NCBI GenBank assembly: GCA_902604715.1
Contig: CACLAD010000003.1
Coordinates: forward strand, 1-64,000
From: an uncultured Bacteroidota bacterium
GTDB lineage: Bacteria > Bacteroidota > Bacteroidia > Flavobacteriales > Flavobacteriaceae
DNA: 64,000 bases
Direction: 5' to 3'
Positions 5,162-50,162 of the stretch are shown piece by piece. Each line of letters starts with the position of its first letter. The stretch's first letter is position 1. The translations under genes and the position numbers were made by a program. Under the pieces are notes generated by a model. It saw only the letters and a program-made list of their open reading frames with translations. It had not been told where the DNA came from and searched no databases.

Positions 5162-5614
5162 ATGAAAAAAGCTGTATTTCCAGGTTCTTTTGATCCAATC
5201 ACCTTGGGTCATTGTGAAATAATTAAAAAAGCTTGTGAAATTTTTGATGAGGTGATTGTTTCAGTTGGAAATAATTCAGATAAAAATTACAGATTTTCCC
5301 TTGATCAAAGATTAAAATTTATCTCTGACGAATTTATAAATACCCCGAAAGTTTATGTTGAAAAATATGAAGGCTTGACTGTTGATTTTTGTAAAAGCAA
5401 AAACATAAAGCATATTGTTAGAGGGCTGAGAAATCCAGCAGATTTTGAATTTGAAAAGAAAATTGCTCTGTTCAACAACAGTTTAGAAAATGTAGAAACT
5501 ATTTTCTTTCTTACTTCCCCCAACAACGCTTTCATCTCTTCATCAATGGTTAGAGAAATAATTGATAAAGGCGGTGATTTTAAAAAGTTTGTTCCAAATT
5601 CTGTTTTAGTCTAA
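5162..5614 (+). CDS. coaD: Phosphopantetheine adenylyltransferase
   Basis: The 150-residue product starts AVFPGSFDPITLGH, containing the nucleotidyltransferase (T/H)xGH motif. It also has IVRGLRNPADFEFE (about residues 81-94) and the C-terminal ISSSMVREI motif, all diagnostic of CoaD. It transfers AMP to 4'-phosphopantetheine, the penultimate step of coenzyme A synthesis. Length is slightly short but within the family range. It follows ddl by 13 nt. Its stop interlocks with that of the convergent NUDIX gene in a shared CTAA tetranucleotide. Confidence 0.97.
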   Translation: MKKAVFPGSFDPITLGHCEIIKKACEIFDEVIVSVGNNSDKNYRFSLDQRLKFISDEFINTPKVYVEKYEGLTVDFCKSKNIKHIVRGLRNPADFEFEKKIALFNNSLENVETIFFLTSPNNAFISSSMVREIIDKGGDFKKFVPNSVLV

Positions 5615-6236: not shown

Positions 6237-6884
6237 ATGACGGAAAACCAACAACAAAATAACTATAAATCCCAAACGGCTGAGCTTCTTTTAAAACTAA
6301 AAGCCATTAAATTAAAACCTAATGATCCATTCACATGGGCATCCGGTTGGAAATCTCCAATATATTGTGATAATAGAATTTTACTTTCAGACCCTGAGTC
6401 TAGAAATATTATTGCAAATTATTTTAGTGAAATAATTAAAAACAAATACGATGATGTGCAGTTAATTGCAGGTGTTGCAACAGGGGCAATTGGAATAGGG
6501 GTATTAGTTGCTCAAAAACTCAATCTACCTTTTATATATGTTAGACCTGAAGCTAAAAAGCATGGAAGAAAAAATCAAATCGAAGGTAAAATTTCTGAAA
6601 ACCAAAAAATAGTTGTCATTGAAGATTTAATTAGTACAGGAAAAAGCTCGCTGGGTGCTGTAGAAGCATTGCGAAAATCAAATTTAGATGTGATGGGCAT
6701 GCTTGCAATATTCACATATGGATTTAATGCATCGGTTGAAAATTTTGAAAAAAATAAAGTTGTTTTGGACACATTAAGTGATTACAATGAACTTATTAAA
6801 AAGGCAACTGAAATAAAATATATCAGCGAAAAAGACTCAGAAACATTAAAAAAATGGAATGAAGACCCTGAAAATTGGACCTAG
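6237..6884 (+). CDS. pyrE: Orotate phosphoribosyltransferase
   Basis: The 215-residue enzyme converts orotate and PRPP to OMP in pyrimidine synthesis. Visible motifs are FTWASGWKSPIYCDNR (about residues 32-47), the substrate-contacting KKHGRKNQIEGK (about 111-122) and the PRPP-binding loop IVVIEDLISTGKSS (about 125-138). Length is normal. It is a single gene between the divergent NUDIX gene and the convergent birA, sharing a CTAG stop-stop overlap with birA. The start is supported by a -7 box 8 nt upstream. Confidence 0.97.
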   Translation: MTENQQQNNYKSQTAELLLKLKAIKLKPNDPFTWASGWKSPIYCDNRILLSDPESRNIIANYFSEIIKNKYDDVQLIAGVATGAIGIGVLVAQKLNLPFIYVRPEAKKHGRKNQIEGKISENQKIVVIEDLISTGKSSLGAVEALRKSNLDVMGMLAIFTYGFNASVENFEKNKVVLDTLSDYNELIKKATEIKYISEKDSETLKKWNEDPENWT

Positions 6885-11479: not shown

Positions 11480-12127
11480 ATGTTTCATAAAGAGGGTTTA
11501 AATATTATTTTAAGCACATTCGTTATTACAGCAATTCTGATAATAGCCCTTGACTACTTTGAAGTAAAAAATGCTCTTCCTATAAAAATATTCTTGATTA
11601 TAATGCTGGGATTAGTTTTACAATTTTTTAGAAACCCAAAAATCACAGTAAACAAAAATGAAAATCATATTTTATCTGCTGTAGATGGTAAGGTTGTGAT
11701 AATTGAAGAAGTGTTTGAGCCTGAATTTTTTAAAGAAAAAAAATTACAGGTTAGTGTTTTCATGTCTCCCTTAAATGTTCATGTAACTCGATATCCTATG
11801 AGTGGTGATATTATATTTTCCAAATACCACCCAGGAGCCTATTTAGTCGCATGGCATCCTAAGTCAAGCACGAAAAATGAAAGAACTACTATTGTACTAA
11901 AGAATAAAGTATTTGGGGAAATTTTATATAGGCAAATAGCAGGTGCAATAGCAAGAAGAATTGTTAACTATGCGAAAGTTGGAGATTTGGCTGAACAAGG
12001 TAAAGATGCAGGGTTTATAAAATTTGGCTCAAGAGTTGATTTTTTTTTACCTATTGGAACAAAATTAAACGTAAAATTAAATCAGAAAGTTAAAGGGGGA
12101 ATTACAGTGATAGCTACAAAAGATTAA
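11480..12127 (+). CDS. psd: Phosphatidylserine decarboxylase, short type
   Basis: The 215-residue enzyme decarboxylates phosphatidylserine to phosphatidylethanolamine at the inner membrane. It has an N-terminal hydrophobic hairpin (about residues 9-50), then AVDGKVVIIEEV, VFMSPLNVHVTRYP and the processing site KFGSRVDFFLP. In the last motif cleavage at Gly-Ser creates the pyruvoyl prosthetic group. The compact length fits the short Psd type. It ends the LUD-cdsA-psd operon and interlocks with the valS stop in TTAA. The matching synthase pssA is not in the window. Confidence 0.95.
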   Translation: MFHKEGLNIILSTFVITAILIIALDYFEVKNALPIKIFLIIMLGLVLQFFRNPKITVNKNENHILSAVDGKVVIIEEVFEPEFFKEKKLQVSVFMSPLNVHVTRYPMSGDIIFSKYHPGAYLVAWHPKSSTKNERTTIVLKNKVFGEILYRQIAGAIARRIVNYAKVGDLAEQGKDAGFIKFGSRVDFFLPIGTKLNVKLNQKVKGGITVIATKD

Positions 12128-20928: not shown

Positions 20929-20947
20929 CCTAACTAAAGTAATTATT

Positions 20948-20955
20948 TATCTTTG
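20948..20955 (+). promoter_or_regulatory. -7 promoter element for the Nif3-family gene
   Basis: TATCTTTG matches TAnnTTTG and lies 17 nt before ATG 20973 in the divergent lpxK gap. No convincing -33 is present. Confidence 0.5.
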
Positions 20956-20972
20956 AAATAAATAATTAAGTG

Positions 20973-44794: not shown

Positions 44795-47700
44795 ATGAGA
44801 ATTCAATTTCTGATTTTTTTATTTTTTACATTAACAACTTTAGCACAACAAAAAAACTCTAGCAACATAGAGTCATATTTATTGGATAGTTTTTCTGTTT
44901 CTAAAAAAAAATATAATATTAAAAGTTCTGTTGAAACCAACTCTAATTATGATGTTTACTATATTCAACAAAAATTTAATAATCTAGAGATTCACAATGC
45001 AATATCTACAATGTCAATCAAGGACGGTGAAATCAAGTCATATTCTAATCGATTCATTGATGAAAGTTTTGGTAAATCATCTCTACTGCAACCAAAAATC
45101 GATAAATATTCGGCAATAGATCAAGCACTTAATGAATTAAATATCAGAGAATTCAAAATTTCTTCAGATGGACGAACGGACACAAATATTAATAATATAG
45201 AGCCTAAATTAATCTATGTTAACAAAGACGGTAAATTACATCTTTCGTGGAATTTCAATGTAATAACTACTGACCACAAAAACTGGTACGATATTTTTGT
45301 AAGCGCAGATAATGGTGAAATTTTAATAATTGAAAATTGGATGATCAATTGTGAGTTTGATAAAGATGGTAATCATACCCATTCTCACAGTCAAAATCTC
45401 ATTGATAAGAACTTAAATAAATCTTCGATTGATGGTTCAACATATAATGTTGTATCCTTGCCAACCCCGAGTCCAAATCATGGGCCTTTTGAGTTATTAA
45501 CTAATCCCGCTGATCCAATAGCTTCACCATATGGATGGCATGATACCGATGGAATTGACGGTCCTGAACATACTATTACTCGTGGTAATAATGTTTATGC
45601 AAGAGAAGATGATGAAGGTGATGGATTAGGCACAGGAATTAATACTGATTATTCACCTGATGGTGGGGCAGAATTAAATTTTAATTTTCAACCTGATTTC
45701 TCTCTTCCCCCATCTGAAAATATGGATGCATCGATTACTAATTTGTTTTACATAAATAATATGATGCATGACATATGGTACAGATATGGTTTTGACGAGG
45801 CTAGTGGAAATTTTCAAGAAAACAATTACGGAAATGGAGGATTTGGTGGAGATAGTGTTAACGCTGATGGACAAGACGGAAGTGGTTTTAATAATGCGAG
45901 TTTTGGCACACCACCTGACGGATCAAACCCTCAGATGACTATGTTTTTATGGAGTGGTCCAGCTGGTGAACCACTAACAATTTTAAATGGACCATTGGCA
46001 GGTGAATACACAGGTCAACCTGCCGGTTTTGGTGAATCACTTCCCGATGATACACCTCTAACTGGTGTCTTAGCACTTTTATATGACCAAGGAGAACTTG
46101 GAGAGGAATCCCCAGACCCACACGATGCATGTCAAACGATTATAAATCCAACCGATTTAGCAGGTAACATCGTTGTTATTAGGCGTGGAACTTGTGAATT
46201 TGGAACTAAAATTTTAGCAGCTGAAAATGCTGGTGCAATTGCTGTTATAATGGTTAATAATGAGGCTGGAGGCCCAATAACAATGGGTGCAGGTGTTGAT
46301 GGAGGTAGTGTAAATATTCCGTCGATAATGATTAGTCAAGCTGATGGAGAGGCTTTAATTGCACAACTACAAGCTGGAGAAACAATCGATGCATCTCTAA
46401 TTAATGCTTCAAATTATACCGACTCTGATTATGATAATGAAATCATAGCTCATGAGTATGGTCATGGTATTTCAAATAGACTTATGGGAGGCGCACAAGC
46501 TGCAGGTTGTATGCAAAATGATGAACAGCAAGGAGAAGGTTTTTCAGATTGGTTTGGGCTAATGATTACACTTGGAGAAAATGATTCACCTACATTACCA
46601 AGAGGCGTTGCTACATATTCCGCAGGGCAATCTCCAACTGGAGTTGGGATTCGTAATGCACCATATTCACCTGATTTTGCAATTAACGGCTATACTTATG
46701 CTGATACAAACAATACAGCAGCTGTTAGTCAACCTCATGGAGTTGGATTTGTATTTGCAACCATGCTTTGGGATCTAACTTGGTTATTTATAGATGAGTA
46801 TGGATTTGATCCTGACCTTACTTACGGAAATGGAGGAAATAACATGATAATGCAGCTTGTTATTGACGGCCTAAAGCTTGCACCCTGCAGTTCTGGTTTT
46901 GTTGATATGAGAGATGCAATTTTACTTGCTGATGAGTTAGTTTATAACGGTGCTAATGAATGTTTAATTTGGGGTGCTTTTGCAGCTAGAGGTTTAGGAT
47001 GGGAAGCCGACCAAGGAAATGCAAGCAGTCGAACCGATCAAGTGGAAGATTTTTCAATGCCGCCAAGCTGTATGCAATCTAATAATCAAACTGATGCAGG
47101 TGTATTGTCAATTGACTCACCTCAAAGTGGAGTATTAAGTAATAGTGAAAATATTTCTATAACTGTTAGAAATTATGGTGTTTTAGGAGTTTCTAATGTC
47201 GATGTTTATTATCAAATAAATGGTGGTGATCAAATTATTGAAAATATTTCAGGTGTAATAATATCTGGTCAAAGCGTTGAGTATACTTTTGAAACAGGTG
47301 CTGACTTTTCAGTAGTTGGAGACTATGAAATAGTTGCCGGTACGTTACTTGCAAATGATGAAGACGCATCAAATGATTCTATTACAATTACCATAAGCAG
47401 TCAAGAAACATCAAATTGCCCAGATAATTATTCATTGCCAATTGCTTGGAGAGACAATTTTGAATGTTATGACCCATTTATAATTAGTGATATTGGTGAT
47501 TGGATTATGTATGATCTGGACGGAGGAACTACTTGGGGAGCTAATGCAGTAGACTTTGAAAACGAAAGTTATGTTGGTACTGGAATAGTTTATAACGATG
47601 TATTAGCAACTCCGACGGCTGGACCAATCCCTGAGTGGGACACTTATCAAGGAGACCAAGGATTATATTTTGTTGCTTCTGGTGCAAACAGCACTACTAT

Positions 47701-48265
47701 TCCAAATGATGATTGGATGATCAGTCCTGAATTTTCATTGAGTGGAATAACCTCACCTATATTCTCGATGAAAGCAAAATCCGTCAACGACACATATGGC
47801 CTTGAAAGATTTCAGATTGCCGTTGGAACCTCTACAGATTACAATGACTTCACGGTAATCTCAGATGGAGCATATATTGAGGCACCAACTGAATGGACAA
47901 CATATGAATTTGATTTATCAGCATATGAAGGTCAGAATATTAGAATTGCTATTCACTATGTTGGAAATGACTCATTTGTTCTTCAAACAGACTCCTTCAA
48001 AGTTGAAGGAACGTTAGGAATTGGAGAAAATGAAATTTCAGATTTTGAATATTATTACAATCCGTTTAATGATTTACTAATTGTAAATTCAAGTGAAATT
48101 TTGAGAAATATTCAGATTTATAACTTACTTGGTCAAAAATTAATTGAGAAAAACATCAATAATTACGGTTATCAGATAAATCTTGACAACTTGTCAACAT
48201 CAATATATTTTGTTAAAGTTGAAGGTGAAACTGGAGTTAATACATTTAAACTTAGGATTAGATAA
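44795..48265 (+). CDS. T9SS-exported M36 (fungalysin) metalloprotease with PA insert
   Basis: The 1156-residue protease has a signal peptide, a fungalysin-type propeptide (about residues 50-190) and a catalytic domain with the zinc motif HEYGH (553-557). The third ligand is Glu581 in GEGFSDWFG. A protease-associated domain is inserted before the zinc site (about 450-535; NIVVIRRGTCEFGTKILAAENAG). Downstream are a CARDB-like segment, a cleaved-adhesin-like domain (about 890-1070) and a T9SS sorting domain (IYNLLGQKLIEKNINNYGY). It should degrade extracellular protein, matching a marine particle degrader. The 119-bp upstream gap holds TATTTTTG at 44711-44718, possibly a distant promoter. Confidence 0.93.
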   Translation: MRIQFLIFLFFTLTTLAQQKNSSNIESYLLDSFSVSKKKYNIKSSVETNSNYDVYYIQQKFNNLEIHNAISTMSIKDGEIKSYSNRFIDESFGKSSLLQPKIDKYSAIDQALNELNIREFKISSDGRTDTNINNIEPKLIYVNKDGKLHLSWNFNVITTDHKNWYDIFVSADNGEILIIENWMINCEFDKDGNHTHSHSQNLIDKNLNKSSIDGSTYNVVSLPTPSPNHGPFELLTNPADPIASPYGWHDTDGIDGPEHTITRGNNVYAREDDEGDGLGTGINTDYSPDGGAELNFNFQPDFSLPPSENMDASITNLFYINNMMHDIWYRYGFDEASGNFQENNYGNGGFGGDSVNADGQDGSGFNNASFGTPPDGSNPQMTMFLWSGPAGEPLTILNGPLAGEYTGQPAGFGESLPDDTPLTGVLALLYDQGELGEESPDPHDACQTIINPTDLAGNIVVIRRGTCEFGTKILAAENAGAIAVIMVNNEAGGPITMGAGVDGGSVNIPSIMISQADGEALIAQLQAGETIDASLINASNYTDSDYDNEIIAHEYGHGISNRLMGGAQAAGCMQNDEQQGEGFSDWFGLMITLGENDSPTLPRGVATYSAGQSPTGVGIRNAPYSPDFAINGYTYADTNNTAAVSQPHGVGFVFATMLWDLTWLFIDEYGFDPDLTYGNGGNNMIMQLVIDGLKLAPCSSGFVDMRDAILLADELVYNGANECLIWGAFAARGLGWEADQGNASSRTDQVEDFSMPPSCMQSNNQTDAGVLSIDSPQSGVLSNSENISITVRNYGVLGVSNVDVYYQINGGDQIIENISGVIISGQSVEYTFETGADFSVVGDYEIVAGTLLANDEDASNDSITITISSQETSNCPDNYSLPIAWRDNFECYDPFIISDIGDWIMYDLDGGTTWGANAVDFENESYVGTGIVYNDVLATPTAGPIPEWDTYQGDQGLYFVASGANSTTIPNDDWMISPEFSLSGITSPIFSMKAKSVNDTYGLERFQIAVGTSTDYNDFTVISDGAYIEAPTEWTTYEFDLSAYEGQNIRIAIHYVGNDSFVLQTDSFKVEGTLGIGENEISDFEYYYNPFNDLLIVNSSEILRNIQIYNLLGQKLIEKNINNYGYQINLDNLSTSIYFVKVEGETGVNTFKLRIR

Positions 48266-48884
48266 TACTAGAAGGCACGTAAACAATTTTCTTATCAGAA
48301 AAATATTGGATATCAAAGATGTTTTTGATATCCAATACTTTTTTTTCACTAATACCTTTCAATTCATCATCAATATCACCACCTTTTAGAGCAATAATTC
48401 CATTTTCAATGTCATGAAATGAATAATTATTGAATCGACCTTTTGACCAATTAATTAAATTAGGCATTTTAGCAACTGCCCTAGTGACTAAAAAATCGTA
48501 ATTGCAATCTAAATCTTCAGCTCTAGACCACTGCGAATTAATATTCTTTAACTCCAACTCCTTAACAACCTCATCAACTACATCTATTTTTTTTCTTATA
48601 CTATCTACTAAAATAAAATTAGAATCAGGAAAGATTATCGCTAATGGTATTCCAGGAAAACCTCCACCTGTTCCCAAGTCTAATATAGTGGCATCTCTTT
48701 TAAATTTTATAAACTTTGCTATAGAGAGAGAATGAAGAATATGTCTGATGTAAATGTTTTCAATATCTTTTCTAGAAATAACATTTATTTTACTATTCCA
48801 TGTCTCGTAAATATTTTTTAAACTGGAAAGCTGAATAATTTGTTTCTCATTTAGATCTGGAAATTGATCAAGTATAATTTTCAT
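48258..48884 (-). CDS. rsmG: 16S rRNA (guanine527-N7)-methyltransferase
   Basis: I start at ATG 48884 (MKIILDQFPDLNEKQIIQ), giving 208 residues. The ORF track start at 48923 lies upstream of a -7 box and adds 13 atypical residues. Motifs are WNSKINVISRKDIENIYIRHILHS (about residues 28-51), LDLGTGGGFPGIPLAIIFP (SAM binding) and VTRAVAKMPNLINW. It methylates G527 of 16S rRNA. Its 3' end overlaps the M36 gene by 8 bp and contains that gene's terminator hairpin, encoding LDIKNIFDIQYF. Confidence 0.94.
   Translation of the reverse strand: MKIILDQFPDLNEKQIIQLSSLKNIYETWNSKINVISRKDIENIYIRHILHSLSIAKFIKFKRDATILDLGTGGGFPGIPLAIIFPDSNFILVDSIRKKIDVVDEVVKELELKNINSQWSRAEDLDCNYDFLVTRAVAKMPNLINWSKGRFNNYSFHDIENGIIALKGGDIDDELKGISEKKVLDIKNIFDIQYFSDKKIVYVPSSII
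48304..48346 (+). terminator. Intrinsic terminator of the M36 protease gene, inside rsmG
   Basis: A perfect 14-bp stem (48304-48317 with 48324-48337, TTGGATATCAAA/TTTGATATCCAA core) with a 6-nt loop is followed by CTTTTTTTT (48338-48346). It lies 39 bp past the M36 stop, wholly within the coding sequence of the opposite gene rsmG. Confidence 0.8.
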
Positions 48885-48900
48885 TTCAAAAGTTATTAAA

Positions 48901-48908
48901 CAAAAGTA
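48901..48908 (-). promoter_or_regulatory. -7 promoter element for rsmG
   Basis: The minus strand reads TACTTTTG, matching TAnnTTTG, 16 nt before ATG 48884. It supports that start over the longer ORF. Confidence 0.5.
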
Positions 48909-48949
48909 GGATATTGTAAACAATAATTTTAATAATTCGCACTATGTAT

Positions 48950-48957
48950 TATTTTTG
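48950..48957 (+). promoter_or_regulatory. -7 promoter element for the aminotransferase gene at 48972
   Basis: TATTTTTG matches TAnnTTTG, 14 nt before the ATG, in the gap shared with divergent rsmG. Confidence 0.45.
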
Positions 48958-48971
48958 ATAATCTTAAAATT

Positions 48972-50162
48972 ATGGAGGAATATTTATCAGAAAGAGTTAA
49001 GAATTTAGCAACATCACAAACATTAGCGATGGCTGCAAAAGCAAGAGAATTAAGAGCATCTGGAAAAGATGTTATTGGTTTGAGTCTAGGTGAGCCTGAT
49101 TTTAATATTCCTGATTTCATAAAGGAAGCAGCTAAAAAAGCTATCGATGAAAATTACAACTCTTATACACCTGTAGATGGATATGCTGATTTAAAACAAG
49201 CAATAATAAATAAGTTTGAAAGAGATAATGGACTGAAATTCACTTCTCCACAAATAGTAGTTTCCACAGGAGCAAAACAGGCTCTTTACAATATTGCTTC
49301 TGTACTTATTAATCCTGGTGACGAAGTTATATTACCTTGTCCCTATTGGGTAAGTTATGCTGATATAGTTAAATTAAAAGGTGGTATTCCTGTTGAAGTT
49401 AAAACTGATATTAAAAATAATTTTAAAATGACAGGGGACCAGCTTAGAAATGCCATAACTGAAAAGACAAAAATGGTTTGGTTCAGCTCACCTTGTAATC
49501 CTAGCGGTTCTGTTTACTCTAAAAAAGAACTTCAGGAGATATCAAATGTTCTTGAGTCTCATAAGGGTATTTTTATTGTTTCTGACGAAATTTACGAACA
49601 TATAAATTATAAGGGCGGTCATCACAGCATTGGCGGTTTTGATAATGTAAAAGACAGGACAATAACCGTTAATGGAGTTTCAAAGGCTTTTGCTATGACC
49701 GGTTGGAGAATTGGATATATTGGTGCACCGGAATGGATTGCCAGATCATGTAATAAAGTTCAAGGACAAGTGACCAGTGGTGCAAATTGTATAGCTCAAA
49801 GAGCTGTAATCACAGCTCTGACTGAAAAGCCTGAAAAAATTAAATATATGGTTGACGAATTTAAAATTCGAAGAAATTTAATCCTTGACCTTCTTAATGA
49901 TATTACAGGTTTTAAATGTAATATTCCCGATGGTGCATTTTACGTTTTTCCAAATATTTCATATTTTTTTGGAAAAACTATAGATGGATTTGAAATAAAT
50001 AATGCATCTGATATGTCAATGTTTCTTCTTGAAAAAGCATTGGTTGCAACGGTTACCGGAGATGCTTTTGGAAATCCTGATTGCATAAGGATTTCTTATG
50101 CAGCCTCAACTGAGCAAATAAAAAAAGCAGTTGAAAGAATTAAATCTGCAGTTGAAAAGTAA
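48972..50162 (+). CDS. Aspartate aminotransferase-like PLP enzyme (class I, subgroup Ib)
   Basis: The 396-residue enzyme starts MEEYLSERVKNLATSQTLAMAAKARELRASG and continues GKDVIGLSLGEPDFNIPD, the pattern of subgroup Ib aspartate/prephenate aminotransferases. The PLP lysine is in NGVSKAFAMTGWRIGYIG (about residues 234-251). Other motifs are SPCNPSGSVYS, VSDEIYEHI and the C-terminal IRISYAAS. It is a better match to AspC function than the paralogue at 15293. It is transcribed alone, 5 nt from convergent trkH. Confidence 0.92.
   Translation: MEEYLSERVKNLATSQTLAMAAKARELRASGKDVIGLSLGEPDFNIPDFIKEAAKKAIDENYNSYTPVDGYADLKQAIINKFERDNGLKFTSPQIVVSTGAKQALYNIASVLINPGDEVILPCPYWVSYADIVKLKGGIPVEVKTDIKNNFKMTGDQLRNAITEKTKMVWFSSPCNPSGSVYSKKELQEISNVLESHKGIFIVSDEIYEHINYKGGHHSIGGFDNVKDRTITVNGVSKAFAMTGWRIGYIGAPEWIARSCNKVQGQVTSGANCIAQRAVITALTEKPEKIKYMVDEFKIRRNLILDLLNDITGFKCNIPDGAFYVFPNISYFFGKTIDGFEINNASDMSMFLLEKALVATVTGDAFGNPDCIRISYAASTEQIKKAVERIKSAVEK

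Follow-up and report, generated by a model that had tools for sequence, protein, structure and literature searches.

Here we report that the M36 metallopeptidase gene of a compact, uncultured marine bacterium is very probably served by a working intrinsic (Rho-independent) terminator that lies within the 3′ end of the opposing gene, rsmG, as judged from the sequence and its comparison across a genus. The two genes overlap tail to tail by 8 nt, their stop codons ending at 48265 (M36) and 48258 (rsmG), so that there is no intergenic space between them (Table 1). The hairpin is found downstream of the M36 stop, on the M36 strand and at a position conserved in relatives, its stem beginning at +32 to +37 past the stop in L001-L005 and L007-L011. 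We suggest that the terminator sits in the 3′ end of rsmG because the streamlined genome leaves no room between genes.

Table 1. Features of the M36/rsmG junction, and strong sites elsewhere in the genome
Feature	Position	Strand	Remarks
T9SS-dependent M36 metallopeptidase gene	44795..48265	+	NF038113 1.3e-285; TIGR04183 C-terminal sorting domain
rsmG, 16S rRNA (guanine527-N7)-methyltransferase, 208 aa	48258..48884	-	TIGR00138 1.2e-35
Spacer, M36 stop to extended stem, 33 nt (38 nt to perfect core)	48266..48298	+	
Full 19-nt inverted repeat, 95%, including A/T flanks	48299-48317/48324-48342	.	inverted-repeat extension of stem
Predicted terminator hairpin	48304..48337	+	14 Watson-Crick pairs plus one G-U, 4-nt loop
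Eight-T tract	48339..48346	+	AAA lysine codons of RsmG (E-K-K) on the other strand
Strong predicted terminator sites in sampled stretches	L057:16562-16601; L051:7050-7085; L053:6335-6370; L055:4972-4999; L055:7929-7958; L048:14450-14474		

The initial annotation of the window (the whole 64-kb stretch of DNA that was analysed) had described a 14-bp perfect stem with an eight-T run inside rsmG and had called it the strongest hairpin present, and both descriptions hold. The arms at 48304-48317 (TATTGGATATCAAA) and 48324-48337 (TTTGATATCCAATA) are perfectly complementary over 14 bp, an extra G-U pair shuts the 4-nt loop and brings the stem to 15 pairs, the tail consists of C and then eight T (48338-48346), and the hairpin is the top contiguous stem of the window when both strands are scanned. 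The dyad is near-perfect, with a GATATC core, and 3 of its 15 pairs are G-C in a window of 31% G+C. The folding energy of the 71-nt RNA is -19.3 kcal/mol; dinucleotide shuffles average -6.8 ± 2.3, and 0 of 200 are as good (z = -5.5). The stem-loop is thus stable and has a short loop, and a U-tract directly follows the stem. No structured-RNA match at the curated Rfam score was found in 47500-49000.

All of these bases are also codons. The hairpin lies wholly within rsmG, where it spans RsmG residues 184-194 in full and residues 183 and 195 in part (read as L-D-I-K-N-I-F-D-I-Q-Y-F), and the register is such that the codons of the two arms face each other as reverse complements, the facing pairs being K/F, D/I, I/D, L/Q or V/H, V/Y and V/N. 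The rsmG start was taken as the ATG conserved in relatives. The residues past the hairpin, KKIVYVP, align with RsmG of other Bacteroidota and are conserved throughout that group, and thus the end of RsmG is true coding sequence and the hairpin was not born in a dispensable tail extension. In an AlphaFold model of RsmG (pLDDT 86.8) the hairpin-coded residues 182-195 fall on an edge strand and the link to the last strand: positions 182-185 form a strand, a short turn comes next, a helix then begins, and the conserved last strand follows at 198-204; a search of solved structures covered residues 9-176, short of the hairpin-coded end. The model makes it plausible that this region is a place able to tolerate replacements.

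The genus was sampled in 21 genomes, its named members being uncultured Bacteroidetes/Flavobacteriaceae assemblies, and rsmG was detectable in 18; in 18 of 18 it faces a convergent gene with the same T9SS-type tail, the neighbour being judged by its C-terminus and not by a family search in each. A stem in the identical codon register, with a strong T-tract, is present at 11 of the 18 rsmG loci, decayed at one (L006) and absent from six (L012 and L014-L018). The initial annotation had raised the prospect that silent changes in close relatives would abolish the stem; these 11 congeneric loci have kept it, and an alignment of RsmG C-termini, which it had also proposed, finds the repeat-coded residues to be lineage-specific. 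No clear replacement terminator was found within 400 nt in the six stem-less congeners or in L006, so termination there would be dispensable or done otherwise, and the decay in one congener and absence from six mark the stem as a lineage trait that is not indispensable.

On a tree built from RsmG residues 1-168 and the upstream aminotransferase the stem species cluster, with modest support for the deeper branches, and the fewest changes are one gain (or a loss in the rest) and one decay; the upstream gene used for the outgroup L019 is not the aminotransferase, and the tree is readable only within the genus. At the corresponding locus of L019, a member of a related genus, a 21-nt gap separates the genes and a terminator-like hairpin lies at the junction itself. 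A tree from the C-terminal half of M36 disagreed with this topology, had a very long branch to the outgroup, and was replaced by the one used here. It places L008 with L005, L014 and L015, against rsmG and the aminotransferase, which may reflect interspecies exchange of the C-terminal part of M36.

The arms have changed together. In a 12-sequence alignment that includes L006, 96.1% of cells pair, compared with 91.7% in column shuffles (as high in 0 of 500), and sliding the arms against each other lowers pairing to 44-52%. The double-change cells and the covariation score were each reached in 0 of 500 column shuffles, a comparison not fully corrected for relatedness; counted by pair, double changes are unremarkable (150 of 500), and only two base pairs have changed on both sides. 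Parsimony places three Watson-Crick switches on the tree, one at pair 10/39 (G-C/U-A, once, between the L001-L004 plus L006 clade and the rest) and two at pair 12/37 (G-C to A-U in L007 and G-C to U-A in L013). Pairing is retained through all three, and each involves a replaced amino acid in RsmG; in the two at 12/37 a His has given way to Tyr or to Asn in one arm, and the Val codon opposite has changed silently. RsmG amino acids change in step with the opposite arm, and some compensated changes replace residues. The earlier proposal that the same bases satisfy both a terminator and the RsmG C-terminus is borne out by a hairpin that lies in rsmG codons and a stem that is kept with paired changes.

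The changes also distinguish the strands. Wherever an intact core holds a wobble-type pair, it is G-U on the M36 strand and an A-C mismatch on the rsmG strand, and the reverse was not seen; in L002, L005, L008, L010 and L011 the rsmG-strand stem is weakened and the M36-strand stem intact, with stabilities on the M36 and rsmG strands of -14.9 and -3.0 kcal/mol in L011 and of -17.2 and -9.6 kcal/mol in both L008 and L010. A hairpin of the rsmG mRNA as the selected element was considered and is disfavoured by this wobble-pair bias. The T-tract runs to 9-12 on the M36 strand in most relatives (at least nine unbroken T) and to about three, followed by C, on the rsmG strand. Polarity of the tract is weaker in this genome than in its relatives, with five T on the rsmG side, and a simple tail score is lower on the M36 strand (3.1) than on the rsmG strand (4.1), the opposite of most relatives, because a C interrupts the start of the M36-strand tract. 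Compensatory changes of this kind, taken with the synonymous recoding described below, point to selection on the RNA fold, and the codon-register stem in 11 of 18 loci, the paired changes and the G-U pairs restricted to the M36 strand lend support to the annotation's reading of the hairpin as the intrinsic terminator of M36.

An A/T-rich region with symmetrical codons (K/F, D/I, I/D) might be expected to favour a palindrome as an accident of the RsmG protein sequence, the repeat simply following from amino acids and codon bias. When the 16-residue peptide was recoded synonymously with this genome's codon usage (3000 trials per species), however, recodings as stable as the observed sequence arose in 0-3 of 3000 trials in each of the 11 stem species; non-stem species are ordinary, hundreds to thousands of their 3000 recodings matching the observed stability. 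When about 410 kb of coding sequence was shuffled synonymously in 108 replicates, 11 antisense stems this strong with a T-tract appeared, about 0.1 per replicate, before requiring a position 30-40 nt past a convergent stop codon. The amino acids themselves shift in step with the opposite arm, which also argues against a protein-driven palindrome, and we consider such an origin exceedingly improbable. A protein-bound DNA palindrome, or a mobile or repeated element, seems to us just as hard to credit: it would suit the near-perfect dyad and its GATATC core, but the arm occurs paired only at M36/rsmG, the genome holding one other exact 14-mer and no second palindrome where a REP-like element would be present in several copies, and a DNA site needs neither the strand bias of the wobble pairs nor the polar T-tract of most relatives.

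Two further readings keep the RNA hairpin and assign it another role, and both appear unlikely. A bidirectional terminator, in which the palindrome ends transcription of both M36 and rsmG, is consistent with the stable fold and U-tract found on both strands in this genome, and terminators shared by convergent genes have been reported to be common in E. coli and Zymomonas (PMC7566282). The hairpin, however, lies inside the rsmG reading frame and not downstream of both stop codons, and on the rsmG strand it precedes the stop by about 44 nt, such that termination would yield a non-stop mRNA; moreover, the rsmG-strand fold is weak in the five relatives named above, and its tail has only three T before a C in most. 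An element of RNA stability or regulation, guarding the 3′ end of the M36 mRNA or acting on rsmG through antisense overlap, with termination secondary, draws on the fact that hairpins of terminators can shield the 3′ ends of transcripts as well. The M36 and rsmG mRNAs would share an overlap of about 90 nt, and overlapping transcripts that regulate a neighbour are known (PMC7154746), but a long T-tract conserved immediately behind the stem is a feature specific to termination, and none of the present analyses points to regulation.

We favour a one-way terminator of M36 set in the opposing gene. RNA polymerase leaving M36 would transcribe the antisense of the last RsmG codons, and about 33-38 nt past the stop the RNA would fold into a long A/U-rich hairpin, whose U-tract, specified by RsmG lysine codons on the other strand, would release the transcript before it runs on through the rsmG antisense and the aminotransferase gene beyond, thereby protecting rsmG. 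In the rsmG mRNA the palindrome is part of the reading frame and would be kept unfolded by the trailing ribosome, making the element effectively one-way. In E. coli, the tR2 terminator is fully efficient once it lies more than about 27-30 nt past a stop codon; closer to the stop the ribosome represses it, and repression is also seen when it lies late in a coding region (PMC4824070). If this ribosome effect extends to another phylum, the hairpin should end M36 transcripts and should stay masked on rsmG mRNA under translation. More tentatively, we propose that selection for the antisense terminator may have dictated replacements in RsmG (K-K, D-I...D-I, L/Q versus V/H, V/Y, V/N), and that translation may turn the palindrome into a one-way gate, inactive in rsmG mRNA under ribosomes and active on the untranslated M36 tail.

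The wider genome was surveyed in 454 kb, a third of the total, taken as stretches with simple ORF-based gene calls. Coding density there is about 90%, and 27 of 54 convergent pairs overlap, with 16 more lying less than 20 nt apart. Overlaps of exactly 4 nt occur in 15 of the 54 (e.g., 5611-5614, 6881-6884 and 12124-12127), and one TTAA can hold both stop codons. A 12-13 bp A/T-only inverted repeat was also noted at 20940-20968, in a short gap between divergent genes.

A comparable hairpin-plus-T score is reached at nine sites in the 454 kb, the M36 site included; seven of the other eight lie between genes, and the remaining one coincides with the 5′ end of a DUF2797 ORF that was probably given too early a start. 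M36-rsmG is the only tight convergent pair in the sample with a strong site. The genes served include those for EF-Tu, ribosomal protein L25, OmpH and an M28 peptidase, and two with T9SS sorting tails. Since strong sites follow EF-Tu, L25, OmpH and T9SS-tailed genes, the M36 hairpin appears to be of the organism's own terminator type, and the genes served suggest that strong terminators often follow presumably abundant or secreted proteins, like M36. The few strong intrinsic terminators may mark the most expressed units.

Our observations are consistent with canonical intrinsic terminators in the short-loop stem-loop, the U-tract that follows and the position 30-40 nt past a stop codon, and differ in the long, A/T-rich stem and in its location, wholly inside the opposite gene's codons. 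Bidirectional terminators of convergent genes in E. coli and Zymomonas mobilis (PMC7566282) and Bacillus cereus (PMC5381666) likewise stand at the junction of a convergent pair and fold on both strands, whereas this hairpin is upstream of one gene's stop, not between the genes, with wobble pairs and T-tract favouring one strand. Terminators of B. cereus likewise retain their stems through G-U intermediates and Watson-Crick switches (PMC5381666); here the switching bases are also codons, and some compensated changes replace RsmG amino acids. Convergent transcripts that reach into the opposite gene, with ends inside neighbouring coding sequence, have been reviewed (PMC7154746) and reported in Rickettsia prowazekii, where most convergent transcripts lack a defined stop in the intervening region (PMC3027695); a conserved hairpin, in contrast, is present at M36/rsmG. 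The type of element is thus already known, both as compensating terminators (PMC5381666) and as transcript ends in neighbouring genes (PMC7154746), and it is the placement that is unusual, no description of this exact arrangement having been found among the open-licence literature searched.

The M36/rsmG junction offers a clear natural case in which one DNA segment carries a protein code on one strand and, very probably, a termination code on the other, and the related genomes are numerous enough to follow how both are satisfied together; its value lies in the strength of this evidence for double coding. Such sites would escape any terminator predictor in which coding sequence is masked. For a compact marine bacterium whose M36 product is a secreted protease, an arrangement of this kind would be one way in which a streamlined genome can keep a strong terminator after losing its intergenic space.
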